64,000 nucleotides of DNA, taken from a virus. Below the pieces are notes generated by a model. The model saw only the letters and a list, made by a program, of their open reading frames with translations, made no database searches and was not told the DNA's origin. Of the stretch, positions 23,405 through 52,894 are shown one piece after another. Location of the stretch: IMG/VR virus record IMGVR_UViG_3300046690_000230, positions 1-64,000 of that record. One strand, given 5' to 3'. The position numbers were made by a program, and so were the translations under genes. Positions within the stretch are counted from its first letter, which is position 1. Each line of letters opens with the position of its first letter.

Positions 23405-24553
23405 GTGGCCGACCCAACATTTGATCAAATTAGCGCAACAACGCTAGCCGATCTCCGAGAAGACGTACTCGTAGACAACTTCTTCGTCGAGACGCCTTGG
23501 CAAAAGAAGATGCGTGCTATGGGCGCACTCGAAGACTTCAATGGCGGCACGTTCATGCAGGAACCATTCATGTATGACCGTGTGAACGGTGGCGCTATCG
23601 CTCCCGGCTCTGATGTCACCGTCATGCAGAAGCAGATTATCGCGGCTGCCGCGTTTGTGCCCAAGGAATACGTGGAGCAGGTTCCTCTGAACCTGTGGGA
23701 AACCAACGTTATCCAAGGCTCTGGTCCTGCGGTGAAGGTGAAGTTGATTGACGCCTACATGCAGAACGCGGTGCAGGCGCTCAACACCGACATCGCCATC
23801 GACTTCTACCGCCACGGGCAGAACATCACTGGCTCCAACCGCCAAATCTTCATCAACGGCTTGAGCGAAGCGCTGAACGACGGTGTCAATCCTTCGTGGG
23901 ACGGCAACGTGTTCACCACCTACGGCGGGCAGACCCGCAACGGCGTGGTGGGCAACGTCCTTAACTCGGTTCCGACTTGGGTTGGCGGCACTGACGGAAG
24001 TACGGGCCAAATCACTTACAAGACAGTCTTTGAAGCGTATCAGAACTGCGTACAACCGCCTGATGTTGGGTTGTGCAACAAGGCATTGTTCAGTTACTTG
24101 GCCGAGCGGCAGGAACCGAAACAGAGATTTGAGATGGGTGGCAAGGACATCGACGTTGGCGTATCCGGTTTGAAGGTTTTGGATGGCACTATCTTCGTTG
24201 ATAAGCTCGCGCCTTCGACCAAGTACGGCACGATTCTTCCTTCGGGCTTGAGCCAGACGACTTCCATCAAGCCGACAGCATTTACCACGCCGACCTTGAG
24301 CACGACACAAGCGGCGATTTCCAACTATCCAAGCGCCACTGCAAATACCAACCCTGGTGAGCCTTTCTTCTGGCTTCGCGTAAAGGGATGGAAACTGCGG
24401 CCTGCGTCTGACCCTGAATACAATTTCAACTTCACGCCGCCGATTCGCAGCCAGAATAACCCTGACTTGGTTGTTCTTTTCCTCAAGGCGGGTTTGAACA
24501 TTTACACAGTGCAGCCGCGTGACAACTGGCAGTTGGTTGGCGCTGGGTTCTAA
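23405..24553 (+). CDS. Major capsid protein
   Basis: The 382-residue protein follows the scaffold with AAGGAG before a GTG start. It begins ADPTFDQISATTLADLREDVL and has long beta-rich parts and VQALNTDIAIDFYRHGQNI, consistent with a coat protein of HK97-like fold. No protease gene is seen nearby. It should be one of the most strongly expressed genes. The call is by context and composition. Confidence 0.75.
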   Translation: MADPTFDQISATTLADLREDVLVDNFFVETPWQKKMRAMGALEDFNGGTFMQEPFMYDRVNGGAIAPGSDVTVMQKQIIAAAAFVPKEYVEQVPLNLWETNVIQGSGPAVKVKLIDAYMQNAVQALNTDIAIDFYRHGQNITGSNRQIFINGLSEALNDGVNPSWDGNVFTTYGGQTRNGVVGNVLNSVPTWVGGTDGSTGQITYKTVFEAYQNCVQPPDVGLCNKALFSYLAERQEPKQRFEMGGKDIDVGVSGLKVLDGTIFVDKLAPSTKYGTILPSGLSQTTSIKPTAFTTPTLSTTQAAISNYPSATANTNPGEPFFWLRVKGWKLRPASDPEYNFNFTPPIRSQNNPDLVVLFLKAGLNIYTVQPRDNWQLVGAGF

Positions 24554-30849: not shown

Positions 30850-30871
30850 GCAGTATGTGGGTAGTCTACCT

Positions 30872-31307: not shown

Positions 31308-31314
31308 AATCCGC

Positions 31315-33730: not shown

Positions 33731-35524
33731 ATGCGCCGGCTGCTCATACTTCTAGCTCTGTTGACACTTCCATCGGTAGCCAGTGCCCGTGAGGGGTGGC
33801 GCGACTGGTGCTGGAACGGTGCCAAGCGGGTCACGACCTCTGGCCTGAACAGCACAACTACCGTCCAAGCCACCACGGCAAGCTGCACTGTCACCATCTA
33901 CGTCCACGGTGGGAGCACACTCGCCACAATCTATTCGGACAATAACGGAACGCCTCTCGCCAATCCTTTTACTGGCAGCAATCCCAATGGGCAATTCATC
34001 TGGTACGCAGACAATGGGCGCTACGATCAGACGATAAACGTCACTATCAACGGGGCATCGAACACCGTCACCATGTCCGATGTGCTGCTCTGCGACCCCT
34101 ATGTGACAGGTTCCACATGCAACAATGGCGGGTCAACCACGGCGCACAACCTGCTCTCAACCACGCACCTTGACACCATTCCAGAATCTCCTCCTGTGCG
34201 CGGCGACCTAATCACAGGTCAGAATCAGACTTCGCCTACGGGTGTCAATCCTTCATGGGCAGCACTGCCACTTGGCACTGCTGGTCAAGTTCTACTATCC
34301 AATGGCCTTGACGCCTTGTGGGGCAATCTGGTGGCTGGAACCAACATCACCATTGTCAATTCAGGTTCTCCTTCGGGTTCAACCGTCACGATTAATTCTA
34401 CTGGTGGAGGATCGGGTTGTACGCTTCCCGGTGTGACTGATACTGGAATCTTAACAGAGCATCCAGTAAGTACTTGTTACGATTCTTCTCGCGCCACATG
34501 GGACGATACGAATTTCAATCTGCAAATTGGTAGTGGTAGCAATGTTTTTACCGGAACAAACACCAAAAACTTTATCCTTGCTGGTTCAAACCATTTAACG
34601 GATGTTACCGATGCTAATGTCAACGGAGCCAGCAACACTATCACCTGCGATGCGAACACATTGGGAAGTTCTACCTGCGATCTTTTTATGATTGGTGGTG
34701 TTGCCAACACGGTTACGAATACAGGTGCCAGTAGTGCCGCATTTTCTACTCACATGTATGGTCGTCTAAATTCATTGACTGTCACTGGCGGAAGTAGTTC
34801 ATCTACAATGATGTTTTTTATGCGTAGCAACACTGCTACAGCCGGTACTGGTGGAGATGTGGATGATTCAATTCTGATGGGTCTAGCCAATGACAGCCAA
34901 GCTAATGGCACTGGTTCAATAACCAGTTCATTGTTTGTTATTGGGGAAAATAATTCCGTTCATACAGTATCAGGTGGAGATTTAGAAGATAACTTCATTT
35001 TAGGAGAGAATAACTCCATGTCAGCAAATGCTGCTGCCAGCGGTGGTGGTTTTATGACAGAAATTGGATTCAACCACACCATTTTCACTTCCACTGGCGG
35101 TGTGCAGATGAACTATGGAACGGCCATTGGTCATGCAAATAGCAACAGTGATGGTTCCGGCGCGACATCCACCATGACTGATTTCATCATGGTTGGTCAT
35201 TCCCTTCATCTTGTAAATTGCACGGATTGTTTCTCGATGGGCAAGAACATCGACCAAGCAGGAATTAACAATACGCTTTGGCTAGGCATGTCTGCCAGCG
35301 ATGTTGGCCTCGTTATTACCAATAGCGGTGGCACTCACGACAACGTTCGCCGCACGCCAATGGTATTTGCTTCTCTCCCTGCTTGCGCCGCTGGAACAGA
35401 AGGCTCATTTGCATCAATTACAGATTCCTCAACTAACACATGGGGTGCTACCATCACGGGCAGTAGCGGGAGTCACGTATTAGGTTATTGCGATGGTACG
35501 AATTGGACTGTCGCAGGAAAGTAG
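33731..35524 (+). CDS. Secreted fibre-like protein (597 aa)
   Basis: The N-terminus (RRLLILLALLTLPSVASA) is a Sec signal with cleavage after ASA. The rest is Gly/Ser/Thr/Asn-rich with repeated beta-turn units (GTNITIVNSG, TSSLFVIGENNSV, GDLEDNFILGENNS), like tail-fibre or adhesin stalks, ending in a compact Cys-containing tip. No Shine-Dalgarno is obvious. It starts the receptor-binding part of the genome. Confidence 0.6.
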   Translation: MRRLLILLALLTLPSVASAREGWRDWCWNGAKRVTTSGLNSTTTVQATTASCTVTIYVHGGSTLATIYSDNNGTPLANPFTGSNPNGQFIWYADNGRYDQTINVTINGASNTVTMSDVLLCDPYVTGSTCNNGGSTTAHNLLSTTHLDTIPESPPVRGDLITGQNQTSPTGVNPSWAALPLGTAGQVLLSNGLDALWGNLVAGTNITIVNSGSPSGSTVTINSTGGGSGCTLPGVTDTGILTEHPVSTCYDSSRATWDDTNFNLQIGSGSNVFTGTNTKNFILAGSNHLTDVTDANVNGASNTITCDANTLGSSTCDLFMIGGVANTVTNTGASSAAFSTHMYGRLNSLTVTGGSSSSTMMFFMRSNTATAGTGGDVDDSILMGLANDSQANGTGSITSSLFVIGENNSVHTVSGGDLEDNFILGENNSMSANAAASGGGFMTEIGFNHTIFTSTGGVQMNYGTAIGHANSNSDGSGATSTMTDFIMVGHSLHLVNCTDCFSMGKNIDQAGINNTLWLGMSASDVGLVITNSGGTHDNVRRTPMVFASLPACAAGTEGSFASITDSSTNTWGATITGSSGSHVLGYCDGTNWTVAGK

Positions 35525-35529
35525 GTTTT

Positions 35530-35763
35530 ATGTACGACGAACGAGACAAGTCATATGCCAGTGAAGCTGCGAATCTCCGCATCTTCGGCGCAACGCGGCT
35601 GCATTGCGACTCTTACCGCGATGACATGTTGGATGAAGAAGGCTACTACGCAACAGGTGGCGGGTTGACGGAGCGCCGTTTGGGACGCGGCGACGTGAAC
35701 GAATCGCAGTCCAAGCTGTTCAATGAACGGCTGCGGGCTGGCCACGAGCATCTGAGGCGCTAA
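35530..35763 (+). CDS. Small acidic protein (77 aa)
   Basis: The start at 35530 (MYDERDKSYASEAANLRIF) has AGTAGG upstream. The product is polar and charged, with no hydrophobic or Cys motif. The stop overlaps the next ATG (TAATG). Confidence 0.5.
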   Translation: MYDERDKSYASEAANLRIFGATRLHCDSYRDDMLDEEGYYATGGGLTERRLGRGDVNESQSKLFNERLRAGHEHLRR

Positions 35764-35984
35764 TGCCGCGCTACGGACTGCCCAACCCGACGAAGCCCGT
35801 TACCAGCCTGTCTAAAGGCTCGCGCCAAGACATCAAGCTGACCAATCCCGCTTCCTCTAAGAGCGGTTTTGCAGCGTCCAGCAAGCCTCCCAAAGTAACG
35901 CCCGACTACGGCTATGTGCCGCACAAGATGGGAGCCAAGACCTTAAAGGGCAAGTCTCCCAGCAAGACAGTCATGGGGAAATGA
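35763..35984 (+). CDS. Basic Ser/Lys-rich protein (73 aa)
   Basis: Low-complexity basic protein (TSLSKGSRQDIKLTNPASSK, ending KGKSPSKTVMGK). First of three small basic genes in a row. Candidate virion DNA-associated protein. Confidence 0.5.
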   Translation: MPRYGLPNPTKPVTSLSKGSRQDIKLTNPASSKSGFAASSKPPKVTPDYGYVPHKMGAKTLKGKSPSKTVMGK

Positions 35985-35985
35985 C

Positions 35986-36177
35986 ATGGCCAAATGGATA
36001 CAGGCAGCCCGCGAAAAGATGGAGGAAAAGGGGTCAGTCGGCTCCTTCGGGAAGGCCACCGCGAAGCACATTGCCTCCGCTAAAAAAGAGGGTGGCGTTG
36101 AAAAGAAAAAGGCCGTCTTTGCCCAGAACATGAAAAAGATTGCACAGAAACACAAGTCGGGCGGGGAGAAGAAGTAA
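35986..36177 (+). CDS. Basic protein (63 aa)
   Basis: Starts KWIQAAREKMEEKGSVGSFG and ends KKIAQKHKSGGEKK. It resembles small basic virion-region proteins found in several phages and plasmids. The stop overlaps the next ATG. Confidence 0.55.
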   Translation: MAKWIQAAREKMEEKGSVGSFGKATAKHIASAKKEGGVEKKKAVFAQNMKKIAQKHKSGGEKK

Positions 36178-36359
36178 TGCCCTACGACGAGGTGATGCAT
36201 AAATACAAGGAGGGAGAACTTCATAGCGGTTCCAAGTCTGGCCCGAAGGTTGGTAATCGAAAACAAGCAATCGCTATTATGCTCAGCGAGAAACGTGCTG
36301 CCAAGGGTGGCAAGAGCGAGTACAAAAGTAAGAAGGAAAGTAAACGGAGCGGCAAATGA
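36177..36359 (+). CDS. DUF6496-like basic protein (60 aa)
   Basis: The pattern EVMHKYKEGELHSGSKSG...VGNRKQAIAIMLSE is the core of the small DUF6496-type family, followed by a Lys-rich tail. Known only as a short conserved protein of bacteria and phages. Coupled to the holin-like gene. Confidence 0.65.
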   Translation: MPYDEVMHKYKEGELHSGSKSGPKVGNRKQAIAIMLSEKRAAKGGKSEYKSKKESKRSGK

Positions 36360-36571
36360 GCTGGGATGGTTTCCTGAAGTCTATGGAAACAGATGGTGGC
36401 AAGCTGATAGTGCTCCTATTTATGCTGCTCTTTTTGGCTGGAATTGCTCTGTTGTTGTTGATTACTGGACATACCCCACAGGAGGCAGGCCGTCAGATGT
36501 TGGTTGGGGCTATATCATCGCTATTGGGAATTTTGTACGGGTATCTCAAATCATCAGGACCGACTAAGTGA
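36356..36571 (+). CDS. Holin-like membrane protein (71 aa)
   Basis: An amphipathic start (WDGFLKSMETDGGKL) and a long hydrophobic segment (VLLFMLLFLAGIALLLLI), then a second one (LVGAISSLLGILYGYL). The size and two helices match phage holins. Overlaps the previous stop as ATGA. Confidence 0.55.
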   Translation: MSWDGFLKSMETDGGKLIVLLFMLLFLAGIALLLLITGHTPQEAGRQMLVGAISSLLGILYGYLKSSGPTK

Positions 36572-38002
36572 ATGGCCACACAAGCGCTGCCCTACGCATA
36601 TATAACTCTGAGCCAGTTGAGGCAGCAAATAGCGAACCGCCTCTACGACCCATCTATGGTGTTCTGGAGTTCAGCAGAGCTTACGGCATACGCAGCGGAA
36701 GCCTTGCAAACATGGAATGCGTTAACAGGGAACTGGAGAGGGGATTTTGTCTTTCCGTCATCGCAGGGCGTTATCTGGTACGATATTCCGAGCCTGACGA
36801 ACACGCTTCGCCCCTACACGGTTACTGATACCGCCATCTACAACGAGATTCTGTACCACCTGCTAGAACCCATCACAGGGCCAGTTTCGCTGCAATATAC
36901 TACCGACGACATTGTAAACGCAGTCCAGCGGAGGCGCGATGAACTCCTTTCAATCACTTCCTGCACACAAACGGTTACCACGGTGGGTGCGGTTGCTGGA
37001 AGAATCACCCTCTCCGACTCAGTTATTGACGTTCGTAGAATGGCATATCTCCCGACTGAATCTATCCAGACGGGAGTTGGCTATGGTACGGGAAGGTATG
37101 GGTTTGGCCTTTACGGGAAGTCAGCGAAAGCAAGAATAGACATTCCCAAGCCTTCGGTCCTCTGGCCGGAAGACACATGGGCGGAGCAGTCCTACGACGC
37201 GACATACACGCTAAATCCAGCAGGCAAACCCAACACTCCTCTGACCTACCTGATGAGCACGCAGCCGCCGCTGTCTTTCGATACCAATGCACCACCAGCT
37301 TTTGGTGGTTCCTACGAACTACTCACGGTAAACGCAGGTGGGACTCTTTCTTTCACCGTGCCTTCGCTTTTCACCATCCCAGACGATTGGACGCATGTCA
37401 TCAAGTGGGGTGCTCTGGCTGACCTCTTTGGCAGGGCATCAAACGCCACCGACCCGCTACGCCAGCAATACTGCGAGAAACGCTATGAGATGGGTTGTGC
37501 GCTCTTGGCGCAGGCTCCGTCGCTGCTGGCCATGAGAATCAACAATGTGCCTGCTCAGGTGTCTTCGGTGCGCGGAGCTGACCTCTACAACACCTCTTGG
37601 GAAGGGGCAGACCAGAGTGCTCCGAGGCAGGTCTACCATTCAGGATTAAACCTATTGGCGCTGTCTCCGACTCCCGATGCGGGTGTAAACAGCGTACCTT
37701 ACGACTGCACAGCGACAGTGGTTGAGAATGCGCCGATACCAGTACTAGATGCGGATTTGGTTCAGATTAGCAGGGACGATCTGGACGCTCTGATTGACTA
37801 TGCAGTGCATCTGGCGGCTGTGAAGATGGGCGGCCAAGAATTTATCTCCACAATGCCGTTGTTCCAGAACTTCCAGCAACAGGCTGCACTCTACAACCGT
37901 AAATTGCTAGAGAATGCCGAGTACAATTCCATTCTGAGATGGGTCAGCAACATGGAAGCGAGCCAGAATCCAGCCCAGCAGCCTGAAGAGGTTAAGCAAT
38001 AA
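36572..38002 (+). CDS. Tail connector-like structural protein (476 aa)
   Basis: The opening ITLSQLRQQIANRLYDPSMVFW and AYAAEALQTWNALTG resemble adaptor proteins of short-tailed phages. The middle is beta-rich and the C-terminus helical (QISRDDLDALIDYAVHLAAVK). Its stop overlaps the next start, pairing it with the very large tail protein. Confidence 0.55.
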   Translation: MATQALPYAYITLSQLRQQIANRLYDPSMVFWSSAELTAYAAEALQTWNALTGNWRGDFVFPSSQGVIWYDIPSLTNTLRPYTVTDTAIYNEILYHLLEPITGPVSLQYTTDDIVNAVQRRRDELLSITSCTQTVTTVGAVAGRITLSDSVIDVRRMAYLPTESIQTGVGYGTGRYGFGLYGKSAKARIDIPKPSVLWPEDTWAEQSYDATYTLNPAGKPNTPLTYLMSTQPPLSFDTNAPPAFGGSYELLTVNAGGTLSFTVPSLFTIPDDWTHVIKWGALADLFGRASNATDPLRQQYCEKRYEMGCALLAQAPSLLAMRINNVPAQVSSVRGADLYNTSWEGADQSAPRQVYHSGLNLLALSPTPDAGVNSVPYDCTATVVENAPIPVLDADLVQISRDDLDALIDYAVHLAAVKMGGQEFISTMPLFQNFQQQAALYNRKLLENAEYNSILRWVSNMEASQNPAQQPEEVKQ

Positions 38003-41000
38003 TGGCTTACGGCGCTGACTTTAAATACCTATTTGGGCGTGGGTCGTTTGAGCGGCCAAAAGAGGGATGGCGTTTTCACTTCAAGGGCATGAAGACCAAT
38101 GCCGCGCCAGACTCTCTGCCTCCAGGGAAGCACCCGATTGCCGTCAACATCAGGGCGGTGAATGACAATTCTGTGGAAACTCGTCCTGGTACTGGTCCAC
38201 AGGTGTTTGCTACCCACGCTCTGCCTGTCACGGACTTGCGTAGCTACACCGTCCTAGGAACTGACAATCTTCCACGAACTCTAGCCAGAGATTCAGACGA
38301 CACGATTTGGCTGGATGACAGTACGCAGGTAGGAACGTTGGCGGCTGGGGGGCTAGGCGCGACGATGATTCCCTTTCGTCCCAGCCAGTCTCCTGACCCG
38401 TACATGTACATCGCCAACGCGGCGGATTACCAGAAATTCTCAGCTCCCGACCCTACGGTTGTGGCTTCCAAGGTCGGTATTGCCGAGCCACAAGACTCTT
38501 GTGAAGCGGCGCAGATTGCCCAACAGTTTACTGAAGTGCTGTCTCCAGGGGGAACATGGAATACGGCTGGCACGGCTTCGGCTTGGTCTTCCGGTGACCG
38601 CTCAACGGACATCGTAGTTACGGCTTTAAACGACCCTGTAAGCCCTTTTAAGGAAGGCGGAATCCACGGGGCCACTCCCCCTCGCTGGTCGGTGCAAGTC
38701 TCGCCTACGGTTCAGTATCAGCGCGGGGAGATAGTTTACTTCAATGGCTCTCCGGCTCTTATCACTATCGTAGAAGAAGTGATTGCGCCGCTGTCCATCT
38801 CCATGACCGTGCAGGCGATCTACTACAAGTCTGGCCCTCCAGGAGTGGCGGTTGTGGTGTTGCAAGGCATCACTTCACCAGGGAAATCGACTCCACAGGA
38901 CAACCAATCTGGCGTCATTCTCAACAATATCGATGTGATTGCCCAGTTAGTGCGCGGGGCGCTGGTTAGCATAGGTGGCGAGACTACCTTCGTTCGGTCT
39001 GTTACTTCCGGTCCAGACAATCAGATTTGCATTGAATGCTTCCTGAACAACACGCACATCGTAGGTGAAATTGTCATCGGGCTTCCCACCATCATCGTCA
39101 ACGACGTGCAGAACGCCACCAGCGTAATAGCTGGTACGCCTATCATTGGTGACCAAGGAAATGTAGAGAACTTCACGGTAGGGGCGGGGGTGGGAACTCT
39201 CACGACGGGGCCAGCAGGCGGTGGGCCTACAGGAACCATCATCGCCAATGCCACATCGAGCCTGAATGGCTGGGGACCAAACGCCCATGTAGGTGCCTAT
39301 GAAATGGGTACGGCACAAGCCTTTAACTGGGGATTAGACCCTTCCACCACGTCTGGTTACACCAACCCAAATAACGTAGGCGATGGCAATACCACTACCT
39401 TTGCCGATGCTACAGGCCAGCATACCCATACTTATTACGGTTCTATCTGGGGATTCACTGCTGGCGTTGCACAGTCGAACATGGTGCTAAACATCAATTC
39501 CAGAGTTCTGGCTAACGGCGATGATGGATTTACAGTCACCAAACGTTCCGCAGGCATCTGGTATTCGCTCGACAATTCAGTGACGTGGAACCAGATTTAC
39601 AATATGGGGCCGGAGTTGCCTTCTCCTCAACCATTGTCCCGCCCCCAACAGTGGGATTCCGTTCCTTTACCAGCCAATCAGGACATTACCCAAGTGCAGG
39701 TGATGGCTTTCACCGATTCGCATGATGACATGGTTCATTACGTCTATGAAATCAACATCTCGGTGGGGGCGGCTTCCATCGGTGTAGATACCGGAGCCTA
39801 TCAGGAAGACGACTATCTGCACTTTTCAGTGCTTGCGGATGACCCTACAAACCTGATTGAACTGAAGCTGCAATTTGATGTGGCTGACGGAACATTTCTC
39901 GACAACTACTACTACACTTCAGTCAGGCCATCGGACCTCGTGCCTGTCACGGCCAACACCGTGTCTCAGTTAGGTGCCATTCAGTCTATCGTCTCGCAGA
40001 CGCAGACAAACCAAGAGGCTCAGGCTGTAGGTCTGAACATCTCCAATCCTAGCGTGGCAGGGGATGGGCAATGGACGGAGATTTGGATACCCATTAGCGA
40101 ACTGACTCGTATCGGCGGCGACCAGACCAAGACTCTAGCTAACATCAATTCCGTGCAGATTGTAGTCAATGCGTTGGCTACTATCAGGGTAGCGGTTTCT
40201 TCGATAGCCTTCGTAGGCGGTGGCCAGCCTGACGTGGGGCAGATTGGTGAGCCTTACCGCTATCGTGTTCGTCCTCGTTCTTCTGTAACTGGAGCGATTG
40301 GCAACCCATCTCCTGATATGCGTTATGGCGTTTCAGCGGTGCGCCAGCCAGTACAGATTGACCTGCCCTCGGCGGCTTACGATACGCAGATTGACAGGTG
40401 GGACATCTTTCGGTTTGGTGGTTCGATTACTTCGTGGCGCTTCTTGGGTTCCGTCGATGTCAGTCACACTTCATTTGAGGACAACTACTTCGATGATGCA
40501 GCGGAAGTTGGAGAGGTTCTGGACTTCGACAACTTCGAGCCTTGGCCGTCCATCGACCTTCCGCTCAACGCTACAGCCACAACCATCGTAGGAACGGAAG
40601 CGGAAGTAGTCATTCCCAGTCCGACTCTGGTACTCCGTTACTTGCCGGGGAACATTGTCAACCTTGGAGGCCAATCGTCCTACACGCTTAGGAAACGTCC
40701 TACTCTTATCAGTGGAACAACTTATCTCTTTGAGTTTGATGAATGTACAGTTGGATTCAACCAAGGCACCATCAGCGACAATGGCCAAGTCTCCATCTAC
40801 GAACCAGCCTTAGCCAGACAGTTCCTGCCCTATATGTGGGGGCCGGATGTGAATGGAACGGTCTTTGCCGTGGGCGACCCGTTAAGACCTGGCACCATCT
40901 ACACAGCCAAACCCAGCAATCCCGATTCAGCACCGGATTCCTACAATCAGGAACTGACTTCTCCGGCAGAGCCTTTGCTTGGTGGAGAGGTGCTGGACGG

Positions 41001-42249: not shown

Positions 42250-42256
42250 GGGTTTT

Positions 42257-42421
42257 ATGGCAGAAGCGAGATGGTATCCGAGCACCCAACAATTAGGCAA
42301 TCCAGACGAACTGGAACGCACCTTACGTGAAGTCCTGCGGCTGCACTATTCGCTAGTTGACCGCCACGAAGAGTTGCTGAAACAAGTCAGTACCTTAAAG
42401 ACTCCACCCAAGCCCAAATGA
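42257..42421 (+). CDS. Small helical protein (54 aa)
   Basis: GAGGG precedes the ATG. A helical segment (DELERTLREVLRLHYSLVDRH) is followed by a Lys/Pro tail. Coupled as ATGA to the next fibre gene. It could be a fibre chaperone or hinge. Confidence 0.5.
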   Translation: MAEARWYPSTQQLGNPDELERTLREVLRLHYSLVDRHEELLKQVSTLKTPPKPK

Positions 42422-43089
42422 GCGATTCCGCTTCCAAGACGAAGATATTAGGGCTTCCGGTATTTCCGTCCGATACCAGCCAACTCGCTTCTGGCTCCAT
42501 TCTTACCTACGACTTGGCCAATAGGCAGTTCAAGTTCATACCAGGTGGCGGAGTTGCGGGTGTCAGCAGCCTGAACGGTTTAACGGGCGCACTAACTCTT
42601 GTAGCAGGGACCAACATCAGTCTGGCTATAGGCGCATCGACTATCACCATTTCAGCGTCTGGCGGCGGTGGTGGCACTGGTACGGTTACCTCAATAGGAT
42701 TGGCTGTACCAGGGGAGTTGAACGTAACTGGTAGCCCCGTCACCACGGCTGGAACGATAACCATAGGAAAGGCTACACAGACCGCTAATACGGTATGGGC
42801 AGGACCGACTCTTGGCGCAGCGGCGCAACCTACGTTCAGAGCTTTAGTCTCTGCCGATATTCCTGGTGGCGCTGCCACTTTTGCCGATGAAGAAATACCT
42901 TCAGGCGGCACTCCTGGCACGTCGTTTTCGTTGGCAAACGCGCCTAATCCGGTTAAGTCATTGCTTTTATTCTGGAATGGATTGTTACAGAAACCGGGAG
43001 GAGTGGACTATACTCTCGCAGGAACTGCTATTACTACGGTAAATACGATAGGAGCAGGAGACAGCTTCCTGGCATGGTACAGGTTCTAA
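42418..43089 (+). CDS. Tail-fibre-like protein (223 aa)
   Basis: The unit VSSLNGLTGALTLVAGTNIS and the later NTVWAGPTLGAAAQPTFRALVSADIP are characteristic of trimeric fibre stalks and recur in the fibre gene at 50492. It ends with LLLFWNGLLQKPGGVDYTL, a phage host-recognition tip motif. No signal peptide. Overlaps the next gene start. Confidence 0.65.
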   Translation: MSDSASKTKILGLPVFPSDTSQLASGSILTYDLANRQFKFIPGGGVAGVSSLNGLTGALTLVAGTNISLAIGASTITISASGGGGGTGTVTSIGLAVPGELNVTGSPVTTAGTITIGKATQTANTVWAGPTLGAAAQPTFRALVSADIPGGAATFADEEIPSGGTPGTSFSLANAPNPVKSLLLFWNGLLQKPGGVDYTLAGTAITTVNTIGAGDSFLAWYRF

Positions 43090-44387
43090 TCATCGCTCTA
43101 TTGCTTCTGTTTCCCTGTAGTCTGTGGGCGCAGACCAAGATAGACCTGACCACGCAGGTCAAGAGTTCCACGCTTACCACTAACACCATTCCCAAGTGGA
43201 CAGGTTCGACAGGATTCGGAAACGGTTGTGTACTCGACGATGGAACCCATGCGGTGCGTTGCGATGCAGGATTCGATGTCAATTCGTTGGGTGCTTATAT
43301 CTTCTGGGCAGTAAATAATACCGTAACAGGGACCACAGTCAATAAGATGGCCTGTGACGATGGGACTGGAAAAGTAATCATCTGCCCTTCCGCTTCATCG
43401 ACCACCAACGACCCTTTGGGCGTAGCAGTAGCGGCAGATGGAGCCACGCCGGGAACCAGCGGAAGTACGGGCATCTGCATTATTGGGTTTTGCTCCGTCA
43501 TCATGGACAACTCAGCTACGGCTGGTCACTATGCCCAATCCAGCAGCACTGTAAATGGTGACTTGAGCGATGTTGGTGCTACGATTCCCACTAATGGACA
43601 ATCTTATTGGCGCATCTTCACAGGGAACTCTGGTGCTGGCACGGCAGCGGTATTCCGCAATCTGACGCCTAGTGAGTTAAACGCATCCGGTGTTAGCGGT
43701 GGCAACGGTAAGAGTATTCAGATTCAAATAAATGGTACAGCGATAACCAAACCCATCGCCAATCTGGTTAATGGAACTGGGATAACCTTCGCTACGGGAA
43801 ATTCAGGAAACACTACGACAATTACTCCTACAGTCAGTCTTTCTGCACTGACATTCCCTGAAGTGAAAATCATTCCAGCGGCTAATTGTCCTAATGCAAC
43901 GCCTGGAAGCGGTTGGAGTTATGCATCTTCCACATGGACGGCTGCTTGTCGTGCAGGTACGAATAACTTAGGTGGTGCGCTTCAGCTTATCCCTTCCACG
44001 GGAGGAGCAGCACAGTTCCGTTTCGAGATTCCCGCCGACTGGGATTCCGCTTCACAGCCTTTCATTCGCATTGAGTACGCTTCTGGAGCCAATACTTCCG
44101 GCACGGTGATTTGGACGGTAGCGAGTGCTTGTACCAAAGCCGATGGTTCGATAACTGACGACCCTTCCTTTGTTGCTGAATCGGCATTTGGTACACAGAC
44201 GATGGCTACGGCAAACAGAGCATGGTCACAGACTGGACAGTTCACGGCAATAACCAGCGGGAACAACTGTGTAGGAGGCGGTGGTTTAGTCATCAAACTC
44301 ACTCTTTCTGGCACAGCAGCGAGTGCTATCAACGCATACCAAGCGGTTATTACAACCCAGAGGCTTCCAGTAGTGCAGGCTAATTGA
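43074..44387 (+). CDS. Secreted fibre-like protein (437 aa)
   Basis: The signal MVQVLIIALLLLFPCSLWAQ has an Ala-x-Ala-like end (LWA). The remainder is beta-rich fibre-type sequence (KPIANLVNGTGITFATGNSG) and a C-terminal domain with paired Cys (CPNATPGSG; ASACTKADG). It overlaps the previous gene by 16 nt. Export signal plus fibre sequence is unusual for a virion protein. Confidence 0.6.
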   Translation: MVQVLIIALLLLFPCSLWAQTKIDLTTQVKSSTLTTNTIPKWTGSTGFGNGCVLDDGTHAVRCDAGFDVNSLGAYIFWAVNNTVTGTTVNKMACDDGTGKVIICPSASSTTNDPLGVAVAADGATPGTSGSTGICIIGFCSVIMDNSATAGHYAQSSSTVNGDLSDVGATIPTNGQSYWRIFTGNSGAGTAAVFRNLTPSELNASGVSGGNGKSIQIQINGTAITKPIANLVNGTGITFATGNSGNTTTITPTVSLSALTFPEVKIIPAANCPNATPGSGWSYASSTWTAACRAGTNNLGGALQLIPSTGGAAQFRFEIPADWDSASQPFIRIEYASGANTSGTVIWTVASACTKADGSITDDPSFVAESAFGTQTMATANRAWSQTGQFTAITSGNNCVGGGGLVIKLTLSGTAASAINAYQAVITTQRLPVVQAN

Positions 44388-45253
44388 TGAAAACACTCAT
44401 TCTCATTGCTGCCATTTTTCTTTGTGCGAGTTTAGTTTGCGCGACGGAGCCAGTTGCCACTTGCAAAGGCAGCACAACGGGTGGAACGTCTATAAATTGC
44501 TCAACCACAATTACTCCTGGTGCATCGGGCCATAGATTCATCGCCACGGTGACAGGGTTTGGAAACCTAGCCAGCATTGCTTTTTCAATGTCCAATACGG
44601 CTGGAAGTACATGGTCAAAACTTGTTCAGCAAAACACCACTGGAGGCACTGGCTACAGTATTCAACTCTTTTGTGCTCAGGTAAATTCAGTTGCTGCCCA
44701 GACTTTTACAGGAAGTACAAATCAAGCTTCAAACGTATTAACGGTCAATGTTATAGAGTACGCTACATTGACAAGTTGTACCGTTGATAATTCACAAACA
44801 AACGGAAACTGGGGAATGAGTACGGGAGTAACTTCCGTCACTGGCGGTAATGTAACGACGACACAAGGTGATCGAGTAATTAGCGCTATTATGACGGTAT
44901 CTCTAACTGACACCAGTGTGAACAGTGTTGGAAGCGGATATACAAAGCAGTTGAGCAATCAGATCAATGCAACAGGAGTTGGTGGAGGCATTCAATCAAA
45001 CGAGATAGAGGACCAGTGGGGAACGGGAACATTTGCATCAGCTTGGACAAATAACGTCACGACAGGCAGTTCATTTACTTGTCCGTCTGATGGCTTGACC
45101 GGACAACTATGCTGGGTCATTGAAATTGTGCTTATTCCAGCGAATAATCCCAATCCAGTACAAGCATTTCCATATATTGCTAAATTTGATGTACCCAGCA
45201 AAAAGATTCCTTGGGACAATCGCAAGAGAAAATTGGAGATTGCTAGAATATGA
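44387..45253 (+). CDS. Secreted beta-rich protein (288 aa)
   Basis: The signal KTLILIAAIFLCASLVCA is followed by repeated Thr/Ser/Gly strands (GASGHRFIATVTGFGNLAS), reminiscent of immunoglobulin-like or adhesin repeats. It overlaps its neighbours as TGATG and ATGA. Confidence 0.55.
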   Translation: MKTLILIAAIFLCASLVCATEPVATCKGSTTGGTSINCSTTITPGASGHRFIATVTGFGNLASIAFSMSNTAGSTWSKLVQQNTTGGTGYSIQLFCAQVNSVAAQTFTGSTNQASNVLTVNVIEYATLTSCTVDNSQTNGNWGMSTGVTSVTGGNVTTTQGDRVISAIMTVSLTDTSVNSVGSGYTKQLSNQINATGVGGGIQSNEIEDQWGTGTFASAWTNNVTTGSSFTCPSDGLTGQLCWVIEIVLIPANNPNPVQAFPYIAKFDVPSKKIPWDNRKRKLEIARI

Positions 45254-45387
45254 TGATTGTCAGCGCACCCAAGCCCACTGACGTGCGACAGAAGCAGCGT
45301 GAATACCGCCTTGAGATTGCTATGTGGTTCATTCTTTCCATTCAAATCCTTGAATTGCTGGCTTTGGCTTTACTGGTGCGGCGATGA
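45250..45387 (+). CDS. Small membrane protein (45 aa)
   Basis: The polar start (SAPKPTDVRQKQREYRLE) is followed by one membrane helix (IAMWFILSIQILELLALALLV). Coupled on both sides. Unknown. Confidence 0.5.
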   Translation: MMIVSAPKPTDVRQKQREYRLEIAMWFILSIQILELLALALLVRR

Positions 45388-45818
45388 CCAATTCCATCCA
45401 ACGCGACCCGCAAGGACCGGATTGGCCGTTAGGATTTGTAGGCGTCGTCACTCCTGGCACTCCTGTAGGCTTTATGTCCGTCGTAGACCCCACATCGGAC
45501 AATGCTCCTGAAACTGCTACCAGTCCAACCAACTACGCTTATACCGTCAGAGCCGAAGAAATCATGGTGCAGGCGTTCAAGCCAGCCTCGGCGGGAACGC
45601 AGCTAAACATTGGGAACATCTACATCGTTCGGCGTGGAAACGGTGGGGGGTCAGGGAACCGCTCCGACACAGGCAGCATTGTCGCTACGCTTGTTCCCGG
45701 CCAGACTCTTTTCTTCACAGCGGCTGCGGTCAACCGCAACGTCTGGAGTCCTTATCGCTACTCGATTGACGCTGACTTTGCTGGCGACGGGGCGTTTATT
45801 ACCCTGATTGTGCAGTAA
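45384..45818 (+). CDS. Fibre-associated beta protein, copy 1 (144 aa)
   Basis: Paralogous to the gene at 55245: both share ...WPLG...VTPGTPV, a Pro-Thr-rich middle, YTVRA...I-V-Q, a GNIY strand and N-R-N near the end. The start overlaps the previous stop as ATGA. Likely a small virion or fibre protein that occurs twice. Confidence 0.6.
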   Translation: MTNSIQRDPQGPDWPLGFVGVVTPGTPVGFMSVVDPTSDNAPETATSPTNYAYTVRAEEIMVQAFKPASAGTQLNIGNIYIVRRGNGGGSGNRSDTGSIVATLVPGQTLFFTAAAVNRNVWSPYRYSIDADFAGDGAFITLIVQ

Positions 45819-46570
45819 TGCCATTACCTGGACTAGTCGGTTGGTGGCAGTTGCTAGACGGTTCAGGAACAATAGCGACCGATTCTTCTGGCAATGGAAA
45901 CAATGGCAATCTGGTAGGAAGCCCGACTTGGATTACTACAGGGCCAAACGGCGGTGGGTTATCCTTCCGTGGCGGGACTTTCACAGACTCAGTTCGCATC
46001 CCTCGCGCACCAGTACTAGAACCAGCAGCCTTTACCGTGTCTGCGTGGATTAAAGGTCCACAAGCGCAAGACCATATACGGCAGTCCGTTTTTGGAAAGG
46101 CGTTCGACAACGATAATACCGTCCCGTTTCAGAGCTATCAGTTGGCCGTAAACAACGGAGGTCCAGGAGATGCTTCGTTGTTTGTGTTTGGTTCACCTGG
46201 AAGTGTCAACGAAATAGTTGCTGCAAATACGGTATCGGATAATTTAGTCTGGCAGAACTTTGTTGGAACCTATGATCCTGCTGGTGGTAATCCTGAGCAG
46301 AGATTCTACCTGGACGGAAGCGTTATCGGCATTAATGGCCTCACTTTCCCGGTTGTTTATGACACTACTCCTGCAGGAGATTTATACATAGCAGCCAATT
46401 CTGATTTGAGTGTTTTGAACAAGACTTACCAAGGCTCTGTAACCGATGTGCAGGTTTACAATCGGGCATTGAGCGCGGAAGAGGTGGGAACCATTTACGG
46501 AATCTCCAAAGTATCCATATTGCGCGGGTCGCATGGCGGTTCTCGCATGACACCGCCCTACAATCCATGA
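45818..46570 (+). CDS. Concanavalin A-like (LamG) lectin protein (250 aa)
   Basis: The pattern LVGWWQLLDGSGTIATDSSGN, FTVSAWIKG, a mid QNFVGTYDP strand and GSVTDVQVYNRALSAEEV is the LamG/laminin-like lectin signature, used to bind glycans. It may adsorb to host surface polysaccharides. Overlaps the previous stop. Confidence 0.75.
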   Translation: MPLPGLVGWWQLLDGSGTIATDSSGNGNNGNLVGSPTWITTGPNGGGLSFRGGTFTDSVRIPRAPVLEPAAFTVSAWIKGPQAQDHIRQSVFGKAFDNDNTVPFQSYQLAVNNGGPGDASLFVFGSPGSVNEIVAANTVSDNLVWQNFVGTYDPAGGNPEQRFYLDGSVIGINGLTFPVVYDTTPAGDLYIAANSDLSVLNKTYQGSVTDVQVYNRALSAEEVGTIYGISKVSILRGSHGGSRMTPPYNP

Positions 46571-46583
46571 TATGAAAGGCACA

Positions 46584-49529
46584 ATGAGACGTTTACTGTT
46601 AGTTCTAGTCCTGCTGCTAATCGCACCAAGCGCTTGGGCTTCTAACTGGTTTGTGCGCTCGTCCACCACCTGCGCCAACAATGGCAACGGCACTTCTGCG
46701 CTTTGTGCATCCTCTCCTGGCGGGGCTGGCGGGTGGAAGGGATTCTCCAATATCAACTGGGGTGCTATCCACGGCGGCGACACGCTGTTCCTAGTACCTG
46801 GTGACACTTACGCAGAACAACTAACCATCGGGGCTTCAGGTTCTAGCGGAAATCTCATTACCATCAGCAAGAGCGGCGGAGGTACTGCCATTATAGATGG
46901 CGGCAACTCGCGAACTGGAATCAGTTTCAATGGTCAATCCTTTGTAACTGTAGATGGTCTAATAGGTAACGCAGCCTTCGGCGGCAGCCAAACCTACGGA
47001 ATCAAGATCATCAACATTGGTTTACCGAATTACTGTGCCTACATAAATAACGCAGAACAGCATGTAAAGTTTCTTCACGTTGAATGCTCCGGCAACGGGC
47101 AAAACACGGACAACGCGCATCTCAACGCCCCTCCATCTCCTGACGATAATCGTGGCGGAGTTTTCGGCGGCGGTGGTGCTCATTTTGTTGAGGTTGCCTA
47201 CAACTGGTTCCATACACAGATGGCGCAATACAACATCTCCAGTTGCAGCATTTCAGGAACTACCTATACCTGCACGGTCACGACTACCATCACTGATACT
47301 CATTGGACCTCTCCATCAGTGCCCTTTGCCAGCATTGGACTCTACGGAAACACGGGTGTTAACGGTCACTGTGGCCTGATTAGCGTTAGTGGAAACACGT
47401 TTACTTGCGAGGGAGGCGGCTCTGGTACAGGTACTGGTGGCATAGCAGTCATGGAGTGGGCGGCTACGGCGGTCACGGGGTTTTTCGCTACGGGAAGTAC
47501 GAATTACAACGACAACACAACCCACGATAACTTCGCCTACGGCGTTTTTAACGACGGTTTTCGTGCTAATGGCAACGCGCAAATCTACCACAATGAAGCC
47601 CAAGCGGGTATGGGTTCAGGCCACAGTGATGCGACTCTGGCTCAATCCGCTCTTTACGTAGAAATATCCAGCAATTATGTGCATGATTGGAACGACCAGA
47701 ACTGCTACTTGGATAACCTATCCCCTGCGTCCAGAGGGCACATTCGCATCTACAACAATATCTGGAACTCACCTATGGGATTTGGTGGTTGCAACATTGA
47801 TCCAGAGGGTACTTCGGCCAATTGGGACGACATCGTAATGATAAACAATACGTCCTACGCATCACGGGACTACGTTGTTCACTACGGAAACCAGGGCGGT
47901 ACGGTAACGAATTTCGTGTATATGAATAACATTTCGCGTGTGTCTGGATCGCAAGGCAGCCCGCCGTGGGGCGCAGGTGGTGGCATTGCTTTTGCTACCA
48001 CAGGCGACCCGTTTGATTACAACGTTTATTCTCCAACACTTGGCGTGCAGTTCCCTATCATTGCAAACTACAGTGGAGGGAATAAGACGATAGCGCAGTT
48101 ACGATTGCTCTCTCCACAGCGCGAAGTGAATGGCAACACTTGCGATGTTACTTACATTGGTGGAGCGCTGCCTACGGGTGCGACTCCAGCAGGTACGGAC
48201 AATTGCGCCAAGGGTAAGGGAGCAAATCTGTCGGCAACCTACCCGTTCGCTAATACAGATTTCAATGGCACCATTCGTGGTACTACTTGGGATACAGGAG
48301 CTATTTCAGCAGGAGCAGCGGTAACTCCGCCCAACGCTCCAACTGGGCTTACTGCTTCGGCTTCCGGTTCCACCGTAACTCTGAATTGGACAGCAAGCAG
48401 CGGTTCTCCTATCCCCACCGCCTACACACTCTATCGCGGCACGGTTCACAACGGGCCGTACACACTCATCAAGACCGCCATGACCAGCACATCCACCACC
48501 GACACGGTGGCTAATGGAACCTATTTTTATGTGGTCACGGCGTATGTCGGGGGAATCATCAGCACCATCAGTGGAAATAGTTCTGTTGCCACCGTCACTT
48601 GCATGTCTGCTTGCCCCAGTTTCGCTACAGGGACAGCCTTCACCATCGCAGGAGATTCTACCTCTAGCTTCAACGGAACCTTTACATCCACAGGACAGCC
48701 GACTTCTAGCACTTTCACTTTTAATAGCTCTACGAACTCCATTGGTAGTGGTGGTGGGGTATGGCCTACGAATCAGGAAAGTGCAAGGTCGAATGAAGCC
48801 TCTGTAGTGGTGGGAGCGGCGATTACCGTGTCCGCCGCACCGTCAGCACTGACCTTTTCTTCCTTCACGATAGGCACGTCCAGCCCCTCGCAGAACGTGA
48901 CCATGACCAATACTTCTGGGGCTGGGAATACAGTGACTTTCACGTTAGTGGCATTTAGCGGGACCAATCCAGGGGACTTCTCGCGTACCACTAATTGCAC
49001 TACTTTAACCACAACAGGACAGCAATGCACAACTCAGGTTACTTTTACTCCAACGGCGGCAGGTGCTCGTTCCGCTATTTTAGGTTTCTCTGACAATGCT
49101 GCTGGTTCCCCACAGCAAATTCCTGTGAGTGGTACGGGCGTATCGGCGGCACCAGGAGTTAGTCTAAATCCCACCAGCCTAAACTTTGGCGATCAGACGC
49201 TTTCCACTACTTCCACTACGCGGAGCATCATCCTGACCAATACAGGTTCTGGAACGCTCACGATTTCATCGGTGGTGGCTTCTGGAGACTTTGCGGTGGT
49301 GACGGTTCCGGTAACGAATTGCGGCGGGACGCTGGCTTCGCTCGCCACTTGCTCGCTGAACGTTACGTTCACTCCCACCGCTACAGGGGGAAGGGTTGGC
49401 GCTGTTACCATCACAGATAACGCTGCTGGAAACCCACATGTCGCTAATCTGTCTGGAAACGGAATCAACACCAAGTGCCAGATGACGGGGAACGTAACCC
49501 TTAGTGGCATAGCCACCATTTGTCAATAA
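46584..49529 (+). CDS. Secreted beta-helix protein with FnIII and ASH domains (981 aa)
   Basis: The start at 46584 is chosen because AAAGG lies four bases upstream. Order: Sec signal (RRLLLVLVLLLIAPSAWA), a right-handed beta-helix region with ISKSGGGTAIIDGGNS and repeated Asn ladders (about residues 50-500), a fibronectin III domain (APTGLTASASGSTVTLNW), then two SPD-2/Hydin (ASH)-like units (TFSSFTIGTSSPSQNVTMTN; LNFGDQTLSTTSTTRSIILT). A surface glycan-degrading or adhesive spike is likely. Confidence 0.7.
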   Translation: MRRLLLVLVLLLIAPSAWASNWFVRSSTTCANNGNGTSALCASSPGGAGGWKGFSNINWGAIHGGDTLFLVPGDTYAEQLTIGASGSSGNLITISKSGGGTAIIDGGNSRTGISFNGQSFVTVDGLIGNAAFGGSQTYGIKIINIGLPNYCAYINNAEQHVKFLHVECSGNGQNTDNAHLNAPPSPDDNRGGVFGGGGAHFVEVAYNWFHTQMAQYNISSCSISGTTYTCTVTTTITDTHWTSPSVPFASIGLYGNTGVNGHCGLISVSGNTFTCEGGGSGTGTGGIAVMEWAATAVTGFFATGSTNYNDNTTHDNFAYGVFNDGFRANGNAQIYHNEAQAGMGSGHSDATLAQSALYVEISSNYVHDWNDQNCYLDNLSPASRGHIRIYNNIWNSPMGFGGCNIDPEGTSANWDDIVMINNTSYASRDYVVHYGNQGGTVTNFVYMNNISRVSGSQGSPPWGAGGGIAFATTGDPFDYNVYSPTLGVQFPIIANYSGGNKTIAQLRLLSPQREVNGNTCDVTYIGGALPTGATPAGTDNCAKGKGANLSATYPFANTDFNGTIRGTTWDTGAISAGAAVTPPNAPTGLTASASGSTVTLNWTASSGSPIPTAYTLYRGTVHNGPYTLIKTAMTSTSTTDTVANGTYFYVVTAYVGGIISTISGNSSVATVTCMSACPSFATGTAFTIAGDSTSSFNGTFTSTGQPTSSTFTFNSSTNSIGSGGGVWPTNQESARSNEASVVVGAAITVSAAPSALTFSSFTIGTSSPSQNVTMTNTSGAGNTVTFTLVAFSGTNPGDFSRTTNCTTLTTTGQQCTTQVTFTPTAAGARSAILGFSDNAAGSPQQIPVSGTGVSAAPGVSLNPTSLNFGDQTLSTTSTTRSIILTNTGSGTLTISSVVASGDFAVVTVPVTNCGGTLASLATCSLNVTFTPTATGGRVGAVTITDNAAGNPHVANLSGNGINTKCQMTGNVTLSGIATICQ

Positions 49530-49586
49530 GGATTTTGATGGACACTCTATGGTTATGAGACGTACAGTACCGCAAGGAGAAATGTC

Positions 49587-50120
49587 GTGCCACCGCGCAT
49601 CCCAGTGATAGGAAGGCAGTTTGGGCGTTGGACAATCCTTTCTTTTCGATGGGATAAGTCCCAAAAACGTTCTTTCTTGTTTTGCCGATGCCTATGCGGG
49701 ACTGAAAGAGAAGTTGCTAGAAGTAGTGTAATTAGTGGCCTTTCTGTCAGTTGTGGGTGCTATAAGCAGGAACAAACCATAAAACTTAGACGGAAGCATG
49801 GAGAAGGCGACTGGCGGCACAAGAATATAACCGTCGAATACAAACTATGGAAAGGCATACGCCAGAGATGCCTTAATCCAAACTCTAAGGTCTATCCATA
49901 TTATGGTGGCCGTGGTATAGCCATTTGCGACCGCTGGCAGGATTACGAGAATTTCTTGGCTGATATGGGACGGAGACCTTCACCGGACCTGACCATAGAT
50001 AGAATAGACAATAGTTTGGGGTATTCTCCAGAGAATTGCCGGTGGGCAACAAGAAAAGAACAATCCCAGAATCAGCGGCCAAGACGTACTGGTTATCATC
50101 GGAGGCCCAAACTTGCCTAG
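49587..50120 (+). CDS. HNH/AP2-type homing endonuclease (177 aa)
   Basis: AAGGAG precedes a GTG start. The order is an N-terminal FGRWTILSF element, a Cys-rich patch ([16 protein letters not shown]...SCGC), and the homing core [55 protein letters not shown]. It sits between two fibre genes and overlaps the next by 8 nt. A paralog is at 55685. Confidence 0.8.
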
Positions 50121-50514
50121 TACACCGACACCTATATTGGGGTTAATCGTTCCGACAATTGGTGGAGATAGTAATATTTGGGGTCAGGAATTAAACACCA
50201 ACCTGCAAACCATTGACCTTGTTGGGGCTACAGCTATTTTCTCAGTTTCATCGAACTACACCGCCACCATCAGCAAGTCTCCTCTGACCCTAATCAAAGT
50301 AACTACTTCCGGTTTGACTATCAACATCACCATGCCAGACCCAGCTACCAACACTGGAAAACAGTACAACATCAAGAAGATGGATGCGGGTGCCGGCATT
50401 GTCAACGTCATTGCAACCATAGACTTACAGACTTCCTGGCAGCTAACCAACCAGTTTCAATGCCTGGGCATAACTTCAAATGGAGTAACTTATGACGTCG
50501 TGTCTGTTGCGTAG
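50113..50514 (+). CDS. Small fibre protein (133 aa)
   Basis: The TTG start overlaps the HNH gene. The sequence [20 protein letters not shown] and [11 protein letters not shown] is the conserved N-terminal module of many phage fibres, followed by beta strands ([19 protein letters not shown]). It overlaps the next fibre gene by 23 nt. Confidence 0.65.
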
Positions 50515-52894
50515 GCTGGCTTTCGTTTTACTTTTGCCGTCTATCGCTTTTGCTCAAGGGAACAGCGGCAAAACAACGCTTATTCAATCGTCTCTGCAGC
50601 CTCTTCCGAATTGCTCTCCTGCAACACAAGGGATTCAGGAGCCAATGATTTGGGACATAACCGCACAGTTACTGAAGACTTGCGGGCCTACGGCTAATAC
50701 CTGGACGGCGGTGGGCAGTGGAGGAGGAGGTGGTGGAGGTACTGTTACTAATTTTAGCATTGCTGGTAGCACTAGTCCTTACTTTTCTGCTGCGGTCACT
50801 TCGCCCACCTCGACCCCCCTTCTGACCTTCACAGTTACCTCACAGTCCGCTAACACGGTGGCGGCAGGGCCGGCAGGTGGAGGAGCGGTGGCACCAACCT
50901 TCCGTGCTCTCGTAGCAGCGGATATTCCTCCGATTAGCTTGGTAACAGGGGTTACGGGGAATCTGCCTGTTACGAATTTGAACTCAGGGACGAGCGCAGG
51001 CCCAACCACATTCTGGGCAGGGGATGGGACATGGAAAATACCGGGAGGGTCTGGTTCAGTTTTTTCAATCGCTACCACTTCGCCAATCTTAGGCGGCACG
51101 ATCACCACTACAGGCACCATTTCTTGCCCGACTTGCACCACGTCTGCTTCTGCCCTTACCGCCAACCGAATCCTTTTAGGTAATGCGTTACAGGCCATTA
51201 CCACGGTAGCTTCACTTGGCAGCACGACCACCGTTCTTCATGGCAATGCAGGCGGCGCTCCGACGTTTGGCGCAGTGGCTCTGACTACCGACATTACTGG
51301 GAATCTTCCTGTTACCAACCTAAACAGCGGCACAGGGGCTAGTGGAGCGACGTTCTGGCGCGGCGATGGGACGTGGGCAGCTCCTCCGGGGTCGGGTACG
51401 GTTATGAACATTGTGTTTAGTTCTCCGCTAACGGGCGGAACGATCACAACGACAGGAACAGTGGGGTGTGCAACATGCGTAACCAGCGCAGCAAGTCTAA
51501 CCGCAAACGCCGTAATAGTCGGAAGCGGAAGTCAAGGAAGCCAAGCACTAGCGAGCCTCGGAACAACAACGACACTGCTACATGGGAACGCGGCTGGTCT
51601 GCCTACTTTTGGAGCAGTCTCCTTATCGGCAGACGTGACGGGGAACCTTCCTGTCACAAACCTCAATTCAGGAACGTCGGCATCTAGCTCAACTTTCTGG
51701 CGCGGAGATGGCACATGGGCAACACCAGCGGGGAGTGGCAACGTAACAGCAGCGGGGACGTTGACCATCAACCAGATAGTATTGGGTGGGAACACGACTG
51801 CGGTCAGCACTCTCGGTAGCCTAGGTACAACTACACAAGTCTTGCACGGCAATGCTGGCGGGGCACCTAGTTTCGCGGCAGTGTCCCTGTCAGCGGACGT
51901 AACTGGCAACCTCCCGGTTACGAATCTGAATAGCGGAACGGCTGCGTCCAGCAGCACCTTCTGGAGAGGCGATGGAACATGGGCAGCACCTCCGGCGACA
52001 GGGATTACTTCACTGAACAGCCTGACTGGAACAGCGCAGACTTTTGCGACTGGTACAACGGGCGCAGACTTCAATATCTCATCCAGCGGAACTACGCATA
52101 CCTTCAACATTCCGTCAGCGTCAACAGCAAACCGTGGGTTGATGACGATAGCGGCCCAATCCTTTTTGGGTGCAAAGACGTTCACTCTAGGCACCATTAC
52201 AAGCGCGGCTAGTCCTATCGCTTCAACAGCGACATGGAATAGTGGAGCAACAACGTTTGATGGCTGGACAGAGGATGTAACAGATACTGCTTCAGCGGCT
52301 GGCTCGTTCCTGATGCGTCTTCGCGTAGGTGGGACTTCTCAGTTTTCGGTGAACAAGAGCGGTGTGGTGACCGCACTCGGTGCCCTGACGGCAGTGAGCT
52401 TGACATCGAATGGCGCTGGTAGCGGTAAACTCGCGCTCACCGCTTCCGGTGGTGGTACATTCGGCTGGCAGGCTCCTGCCGTTGTTTCTAGCTATACATG
52501 GACAGTTCCTGGTGCCGATGCGGCTGGCATTGTTCAATCGGATGGCGCAGGCGTACTCAGCGTCAATACAGCCATTCGTCAGGGAACGCCTTCAGTCAAT
52601 TCTGGATTTGGCACTAGTCCAAGTTGCAGTCCTTGCGTTAATCCTTTGGCTTTCACGGTAACGGTTGGTTCTGCACCAGGAAACAGCGGCGTGCTCACCT
52701 TGCCCACGGCTCCGGCAGGATGGACTTGCTGGGTCAATAACCGTACTGCGGCTCTCAACAACCGAGCCGACAACACACGCCAGACGGATTCTACAACCAC
52801 CAGCGCAACGTTTCAGAACCAGACAACTTCAACGGGTGCGGCCATCGCTTTTACGGCATCCGATGTTTTACGGTTTACCTGTGTGGCTTTATAA
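50492..52894 (+). CDS. Secreted repeat-bearing tail fibre (800 aa)
   Basis: GGAG six bases upstream supports this ATG. The signal [20 protein letters not shown] is followed by four copies of a fibre unit whose marker [11 protein letters not shown] begins at about residues 156, 270, 384 and 472 (spacing 114, 114, 88), each with FWxGDGTW after it. The C-terminus has [16 protein letters not shown] and a tip-like end. A trimeric stalk is likely; the signal peptide is unexpected. Confidence 0.7.

Follow-up and report, generated by a model that had tools for sequence, protein, structure and literature searches.

The 64,000-base stretch analysed here (the window) is part of a 66,190-base virus record from IMG/VR, and contains genes for a terminase, a P22-type portal and a head protein, as well as a tail-fibre block in which five proteins, starting at positions 33731, 43074, 44387, 46584 and 50492, carry predicted Sec signal peptides (leaders). 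A leader on a protein with a tailspike domain, as is predicted for the first of these, is unexpected among the proteins of tailed phages. Three IMG/VR relatives have major head proteins that are 91-92% identical to that of the window (92% in G001, 91% in G002), and the cultured phages that come nearest to it in terminase and head protein, Tunturi_1 and Tunturi_2, are only about 32% identical in both. The latter are described as podoviruses of Tunturiibacter, in the Acidobacteriota (PMC11924767), and since they are the nearest cultured relatives, an Acidobacteriota-type host is inferred for the window phage. A prophage search with the head protein in genome_contigs returned 20 stretches, none of them a relative.

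Table 1. Coordinates of the fibre-block features and of the head protein within the window.
Feature	Position	Strand	Evidence or remarks
Major head protein	23405..24553	+	phrog_9953; marker defining the phage clade
Leader-bearing fibre/spike protein, 597 amino acids	33731..35524	+	conserved N- and C-terminal regions, divergent middle; orthologues in 3 relatives
Predicted signal peptide MRRLLILLALLTLPSVASA	33731..33787	+	rule score; aligned leaders in two relatives
Predicted tailspike-type N-terminal domain, two conserved Cys	33797..34138	+	A4 alignment, hhalign, PDB profile match 9vyg
Fibre-like protein without leader (contrast)	42418..43089	+	open reading frame, leader rule
Leader-bearing fibre-like protein, 437 amino acids	43074..44387	+	leader 43074-43130
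Leader-bearing protein, 288 amino acids	44387..45253	+	leader 44387-44443
Laminin_G_3 / ConA-lectin-like protein without leader (contrast)	45818..46570	+	Pfam E 3e-20
Leader-bearing large adhesin/spike-like protein, two C-terminal HYDIN/ASH-type immunoglobulin domains	46584..49529	+	leader 46584-46640
Leader-bearing fibre-repeat protein, FWxGDGTW repeats, 800 amino acids	50492..52894	+	leader 50492-50554

Five predicted leaders and their conservation

Leaders were called with a custom rule, not with SignalP, that requires a non-negative n-region, a hydrophobic core devoid of polar residues, and small residues at positions -3 and -1 of the cleavage site. By this rule, n-h-c leaders with -3/-1 sites are present on all five proteins, and predicted cleavage separates MRRLLILLALLTLPSVASA from REGW (33731), MVQVLIIALLLLFPCSLWA from QTKI (43074), MKTLILIAAIFLCASLVCA from TEPV (44387) and MRRLLLVLVLLLIAPSAWA from SNWF (46584). 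At a score cut-off of 4.3, six of the 185 window open reading frames (ORFs) of at least 80 amino acids pass, namely the five fibre-region proteins and a minus-strand ORF outside the fibre block (8532-9026, MKRTLCILAFALLPAVAQADSIN, 164 amino acids, no PHROGs match); a further small leader-bearing ORF lies at 62513-62848, also on the minus strand (MKAAVMVISFFVAMATAWAMAQQDKPK). Among the 29 non-overlapping ORFs of at least 200 amino acids five pass, all of them in the tail-fibre block, and the neighbouring proteins at 36572, 38002, 42418, 45818 and 52898 have no leader by the same rule. Chance passes amounted to 66/17,000 (0.4%) for shuffled N-termini and to 20/8,614 for internal starts; when residues 2-30 of the five proteins were shuffled alone the pass was retained in 528 of 10,000 cases, and the score is therefore partly one of composition. 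A lipobox ending in Cys, of the signal peptidase II type, was found in none of the five. Lipobox-like stretches occur in 3/73 phage leader proteins, two of which, L002:9992 and L003:10001, are orthologues of the 50492 protein that carry LSGC within the leader and may therefore be lipoproteins, unlike their counterpart in the window.

The start at 50492 is preceded by a Shine-Dalgarno sequence (GGAG, 6 nucleotides before the ATG), and that at 46584 by AAAGG 4 nucleotides upstream, for which it was preferred over an in-frame ATG at 46572; none is clear at 33731. The gene at 43074 overlaps the preceding one by 16 bases, and the ATG at 44387 overlaps the stop of the gene before it. The initial annotation, which had read hydrophobic export signals at these five starts, pointed to signal-peptide prediction as a check, and noted a well-placed Shine-Dalgarno sequence at 50492, is borne out on these counts, with the prediction being that of the custom rule.

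Short exact patterns retrieved no relatives of the 33731 protein from IMG/VR; they were recovered when the records of the relatives themselves were searched, and align from residue 1, within leaders MKRLFILLLFLLGSAKLASA and MNRPLILLLLLLGSAGVASA. Orthologues of the 50492 protein have differing leaders that converge on a common mature start, QG(N/G)SGK. The orthologue leaders are 36-55% identical and are still signal peptides by prediction at a synonymous divergence that is high or saturated; when codon drift to similar divergence was simulated for three leaders, the pass was kept in 315, 255 and 659 of 4,000 runs. For the 43074 protein, G002 offers a distant relative with a leader, and the C-terminal part is common with G004, where it is 69% identical to a 946-residue frame. 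In G000, G001, G002 and G004, long leader-bearing ORFs are found in the fibre region, with a few short ones elsewhere. The initial annotation had left room for true starts downstream of the hydrophobic segments, in which case the leaders would be untranslated in-frame sequence, and the 33731 gene, with no clear Shine-Dalgarno sequence, would suit that explanation. It is nevertheless contradicted for 33731 and 50492, since their orthologues retain leaders, and is highly improbable overall, given that leader codons vary while the hydrophobic character stays, and that 50492 has a good Shine-Dalgarno sequence.

A tailspike-type domain behind the 33731 leader

The predicted cleavage site of the 33731 protein lies a few residues before a domain that would be N-terminal in the mature protein only if the leader were cleaved. 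In the A4 alignment of this domain a leader-like segment precedes it in 12/12 members (read by eye in L116 and L123), and two Cys are invariant. The domain has tblastn matches to the N-termini of tailspikes or tail fibres of cultured phages, and comparison by hhalign of A4 with conventional tailspike N-termini (A6) gave a probability of 99.4 and an E of 3.9e-21. A profile search of the PDB returned, at E 1, matches only to the tail spike proteins 9vyg/9vyh (E 0.005-0.036, the former at E 0.005). When the domain was modelled with AlphaFold2 (mean pLDDT 78.6) and submitted to Foldseek, the top two matches, of weak score, were the tail machines of cyanophage Pam1 (7eeq; E 0.066) and of Pan3 (9vyg, also the top profile match; E 0.082), both podophages; transthyretin-like and DUF4425 fold matches were discounted as beta-sandwich matches of a common kind. 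By these comparisons, what follows the predicted leader is a domain that shares homology with the N-termini of ordinary tailspikes. The same domain is present in ORF12 of Tunturi_1.

In the homologues read from eight other cultured phages the leader is absent (0/8 have one), and 16-33 residues separate the upstream stop from the matched stretch. Conventional tailspikes, such as those of Serratia phage MTx, E. coli phage ep3, ECO1230-10, Alux-21, Klebsiella phage KA2-1 and Pseudomonas phage KT1, resemble the 33731 protein in that a homologous N-terminal domain fronts a longer tail protein, but differ from it in that the domain runs from the start codon, has no leader before it and lacks the second conserved Cys.

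Leaders and cysteines across phages

Loci fetched from IMG/VR with a profile of the Cys-type domain pass the leader rule at score 4.0 in 43 of 47 cases (39/42 distinct), in a set that is biased toward the Cys form because the fetching pattern contained the second Cys; the remaining four (L170, L182, L186 and L187) have a hydrophobic N-terminal stretch by eye. The contigs in which the domain follows the leader measure about 10-138 kb. When the leaderless form supplied the profile, 59 loci were fetched, 41 of them distinct, of which 36 have neither Cys nor leader, four have both, and one (L262) has Cys without a leader; L256, counted among the 36, has a sub-threshold leader-like stretch and the first Cys only. 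L227 and L244 have an extended N-terminus without a leader, lack both cysteines, and offer natural contrasts along with L262. A pooled automatic table of both cysteines by leader reads 39/2/6/46 (Fisher p 2e-17); some anchors in it are misplaced (several apparent exceptions arise in this way) and four rows are unplaced, and the p-value is only indicative because the sequences are related. Within the domain, as aligned here, leader and cysteines travel together. Fibre-like protein clusters are likewise richer in Cys when a leader is present, with a median of 1.92 per 100 residues (n=18) vs 0.60 without (n=44; p 1e-6). An Acidobacteriaceae metagenome-assembled genome (MAG; G006) has two matches to the VKOR family, which is a disulfide-forming family.

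The cultured Tunturi phages carry leaders as well. In Tunturi_1 these are found on ORFs 12, 13, 14 ('tail spike'), 16 and 17 ('virion structural protein'), in Tunturi_2 on the same gene set, and in the siphovirus Tunturi_4 on ORF113 ('tail protein') and ORF114 ('virion structural protein'), at 83.7-87.3 kb; like the window, these fibre clusters encode leader-bearing, Cys-rich tail proteins. A term search in the main text of the Tunturi description gives 0 mentions of signal peptides or mass spectrometry (PMC11924767). In the loci at hand, where some genes were fetched twice, 18/85 ORFs carrying fibre-repeat motifs pass at 4.3, and among pooled, deduplicated phage ORFs of at least 200 amino acids fibre-like proteins pass in 55/180 cases vs 18/670 for others. 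Leader-bearing arrays are present in loci from contigs of up to 231 kb, and the predicted leader pattern extends far beyond the window's genome.

Cleavage sites of the AxA type recur, and Q follows the predicted site in 29/72 phage leaders, vs 10/40 leaders of G006. This feature recalls the Q-rule of Bacteroidetes (PMC5837995, whose main text does not mention Acidobacteria); a search of the same MAG for the glutaminyl cyclase PF05096 gave no match. Phages of Porphyromonas gingivalis also encode Sec leaders with Q at +1, but on five function-unassigned genes that are not described as tailspikes in the available part of the report (PMC10367356), and a rumen phage paper, in the portion accessible, counts signal peptides in two Bacteroides phages with no tail proteins named (PMC5723332). 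Phage proteins diversified by diversity-generating retroelements (DGR) are stated to lack signal peptides, and that absence has served as support for the phage origin of diversified proteins (PMC6199706). No report of signal peptides on tailspikes was found in the titles and abstract openings of the literature searched, which covers few subscription journals and is not proof of absence.

The hydrophobic N-termini could instead remain uncleaved and serve as pegs in the virion or in the membrane, with assembly in the cytoplasm as usual. Processing is a prediction from sequence, and a relative of the 46584 protein in L084 has a leader resembling a transmembrane anchor. The recurrence of AxA-type sites, the frequency of Q at +1, and the two cysteines that accompany the leader all argue in the opposite direction, and render such a peg improbable.

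A putative two-compartment route and its genomic setting

Assembly of tailed phages is taught as being cytoplasmic until lysis. In filamentous phages the coat proteins, which are part of the virion, are synthesized with a signal peptide that is cleaved; unlike tailed phages, however, these unrelated viruses are assembled at the membrane. In the route suggested here, tailspike and tail-fibre proteins would be made as secretory precursors that the leader directs through the host Sec machinery; signal peptidase I would cut the leader off, as the AxA-type sites suggest, and folding with disulfide formation would take place in the periplasm, as suggested by Cys content and covariation. Once cleaved, the 33731 protein would begin with an anchor-type domain of the conventional tailspike kind, and for this reason it is proposed that mature spikes join finished tails when the inner membrane is breached by holin/endolysin lysis, which would bring virions into contact with the spikes in the periplasm. 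Late attachment is plausible since, in P22, finished heads accept tailspikes in vitro.

Export of the leader proteins is very probable, and the full sequence of Sec export, cleavage, periplasmic oxidation and virion attachment at lysis is given a probability of roughly one half. A slightly more tentative generalization is that a large group of soil phages, at least some of them Acidobacteriota-infecting and with podoviruses as well as siphoviruses among them, splits the completion of its tails between two compartments, with heads and tails made in the cytoplasm and Sec-exported, disulfide-bonded receptor-binding spikes that are processed in the periplasm and added at lysis. If attachment after export is true, this way of assembling a virion would, as far as is known, be unprecedented among tailed phages. 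A conserved Sec leader ahead of a tailspike N-terminal domain would imply that receptor-binding proteins can reach maturity, disulfides included, beyond the cytoplasm, with consequences for the biology of host range, for annotation pipelines and for the production of spikes. The trait is carried by cultured phages, which makes the question directly testable.

A number of points weigh against this route. Spikes exported by Sec must still meet virions assembled in the cytoplasm, and export, cleavage and virion content are read here from sequences, through leader calls of a custom rule other than SignalP. Orthologues of 43074 are only distant or partial, 44387 was outside the orthologue search, and the Cys-type locus set is biased as stated above. 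L174, L207 and L266 combine a leader with the second Cys only, and L262 has the second Cys and no leader. Even Cys counts, seen in 48/58 proteins before clustering, do not differ after it (14/17 with leader vs 15/20 without), and Cys parity, which does not separate leader-bearing from leaderless fibre-like proteins, was dropped as an argument for disulfides. The fold scores of the domain are weak (Z 5.6 for Pam1, 5.3 for Pan3), and 'tail spike' and similar Tunturi names are depositors' predictions. In Tunturi_3, no leader was found in the tail genes read, with 50,000-70,000 left out and one ORF scored in 70,000-97,608. Because no anchor domain was identified in the other four window proteins, their link to the virion is drawn from gene position and fibre-type sequence only.

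The same leaders and Cys richness would suit any exported role, including that of processed proteins which never enter the virion and which block receptors against superinfection, degrade surface polysaccharides, or stick progeny to cells or matrix. The host-like immunoglobulin domains of the 46584 protein and the annotation of Tunturi_2 ORF14 as a pectin lyase are in keeping with such roles, and since the leaderless fibre-like proteins at 42418, 45818 and 52898 are also encoded, the virion need not rely on exported ones. A free protein, however, has no obvious need for the tailspike N-terminal domain that the 33731 protein and its relatives retain right after the predicted cleavage site, and the genes sit within, and overlap, the virion gene block, leaving a purely extravirion function, the main alternative to the route above, somewhat unlikely. 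A Pfam scan (E 0.01) of the five proteins revealed no autotransporter-type C-terminal outer-membrane anchor, with four of the five matching nothing at all, and neither Pfam nor PHROGs assigned a family to those at 33731, 43074, 44387 and 50492.

Recruitment from host secreted-protein genes, by which the leaders would be recent passengers on fibre modules with no selected phage function, finds its best case in the 46584 protein, whose HYDIN/ASH-type domains have a single match in genome_contigs, in an Acidobacteriaceae MAG; a comparison of this protein with cultured phages gave no match. It is contradicted for 33731 and 50492 by leaders that survive high or saturated synonymous divergence, and it sits poorly with leaders that precede the same phage tailspike domain across contigs of such different size, so that it appears quite improbable. 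Of the two roles that the initial annotation had raised, export to the envelope or medium gains support from leader conservation, the Cys pattern and the spread across phages, and host-module recruitment fits only 46584, leaving the conserved leader-plus-tailspike-domain arrangement unexplained; it had set virion proteins against exported ones, but for 33731 a leader before an ordinary tailspike N-terminus suggests both.

Between the head and fibre blocks, at 26751-33476, lie carbohydrate genes, with a TPR plus Glyco_transf_9 fragment at 26751 and a nucleotide-sugar epimerase at 31337 (phrog_540, E 5e-63), which possibly constitute a surface- or virion-glycan cassette. An Rfam scan gave no match, and promoter and terminator patterns showed no excess over the shuffled level. 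The protein encoded at 49587-50120, between two fibre genes, has no Pfam match and is one that we take, by eye, to be similar to HNH/AP2-type homing endonucleases. Two paralogous small proteins, encoded at 45384-45818 and 55245-55682 (MTNSIQRDPQGPDWPLG and MANSVLKNPQGPFWPLG), look by eye like ORF33 of Tunturi_1, a 'tail fiber protein'.

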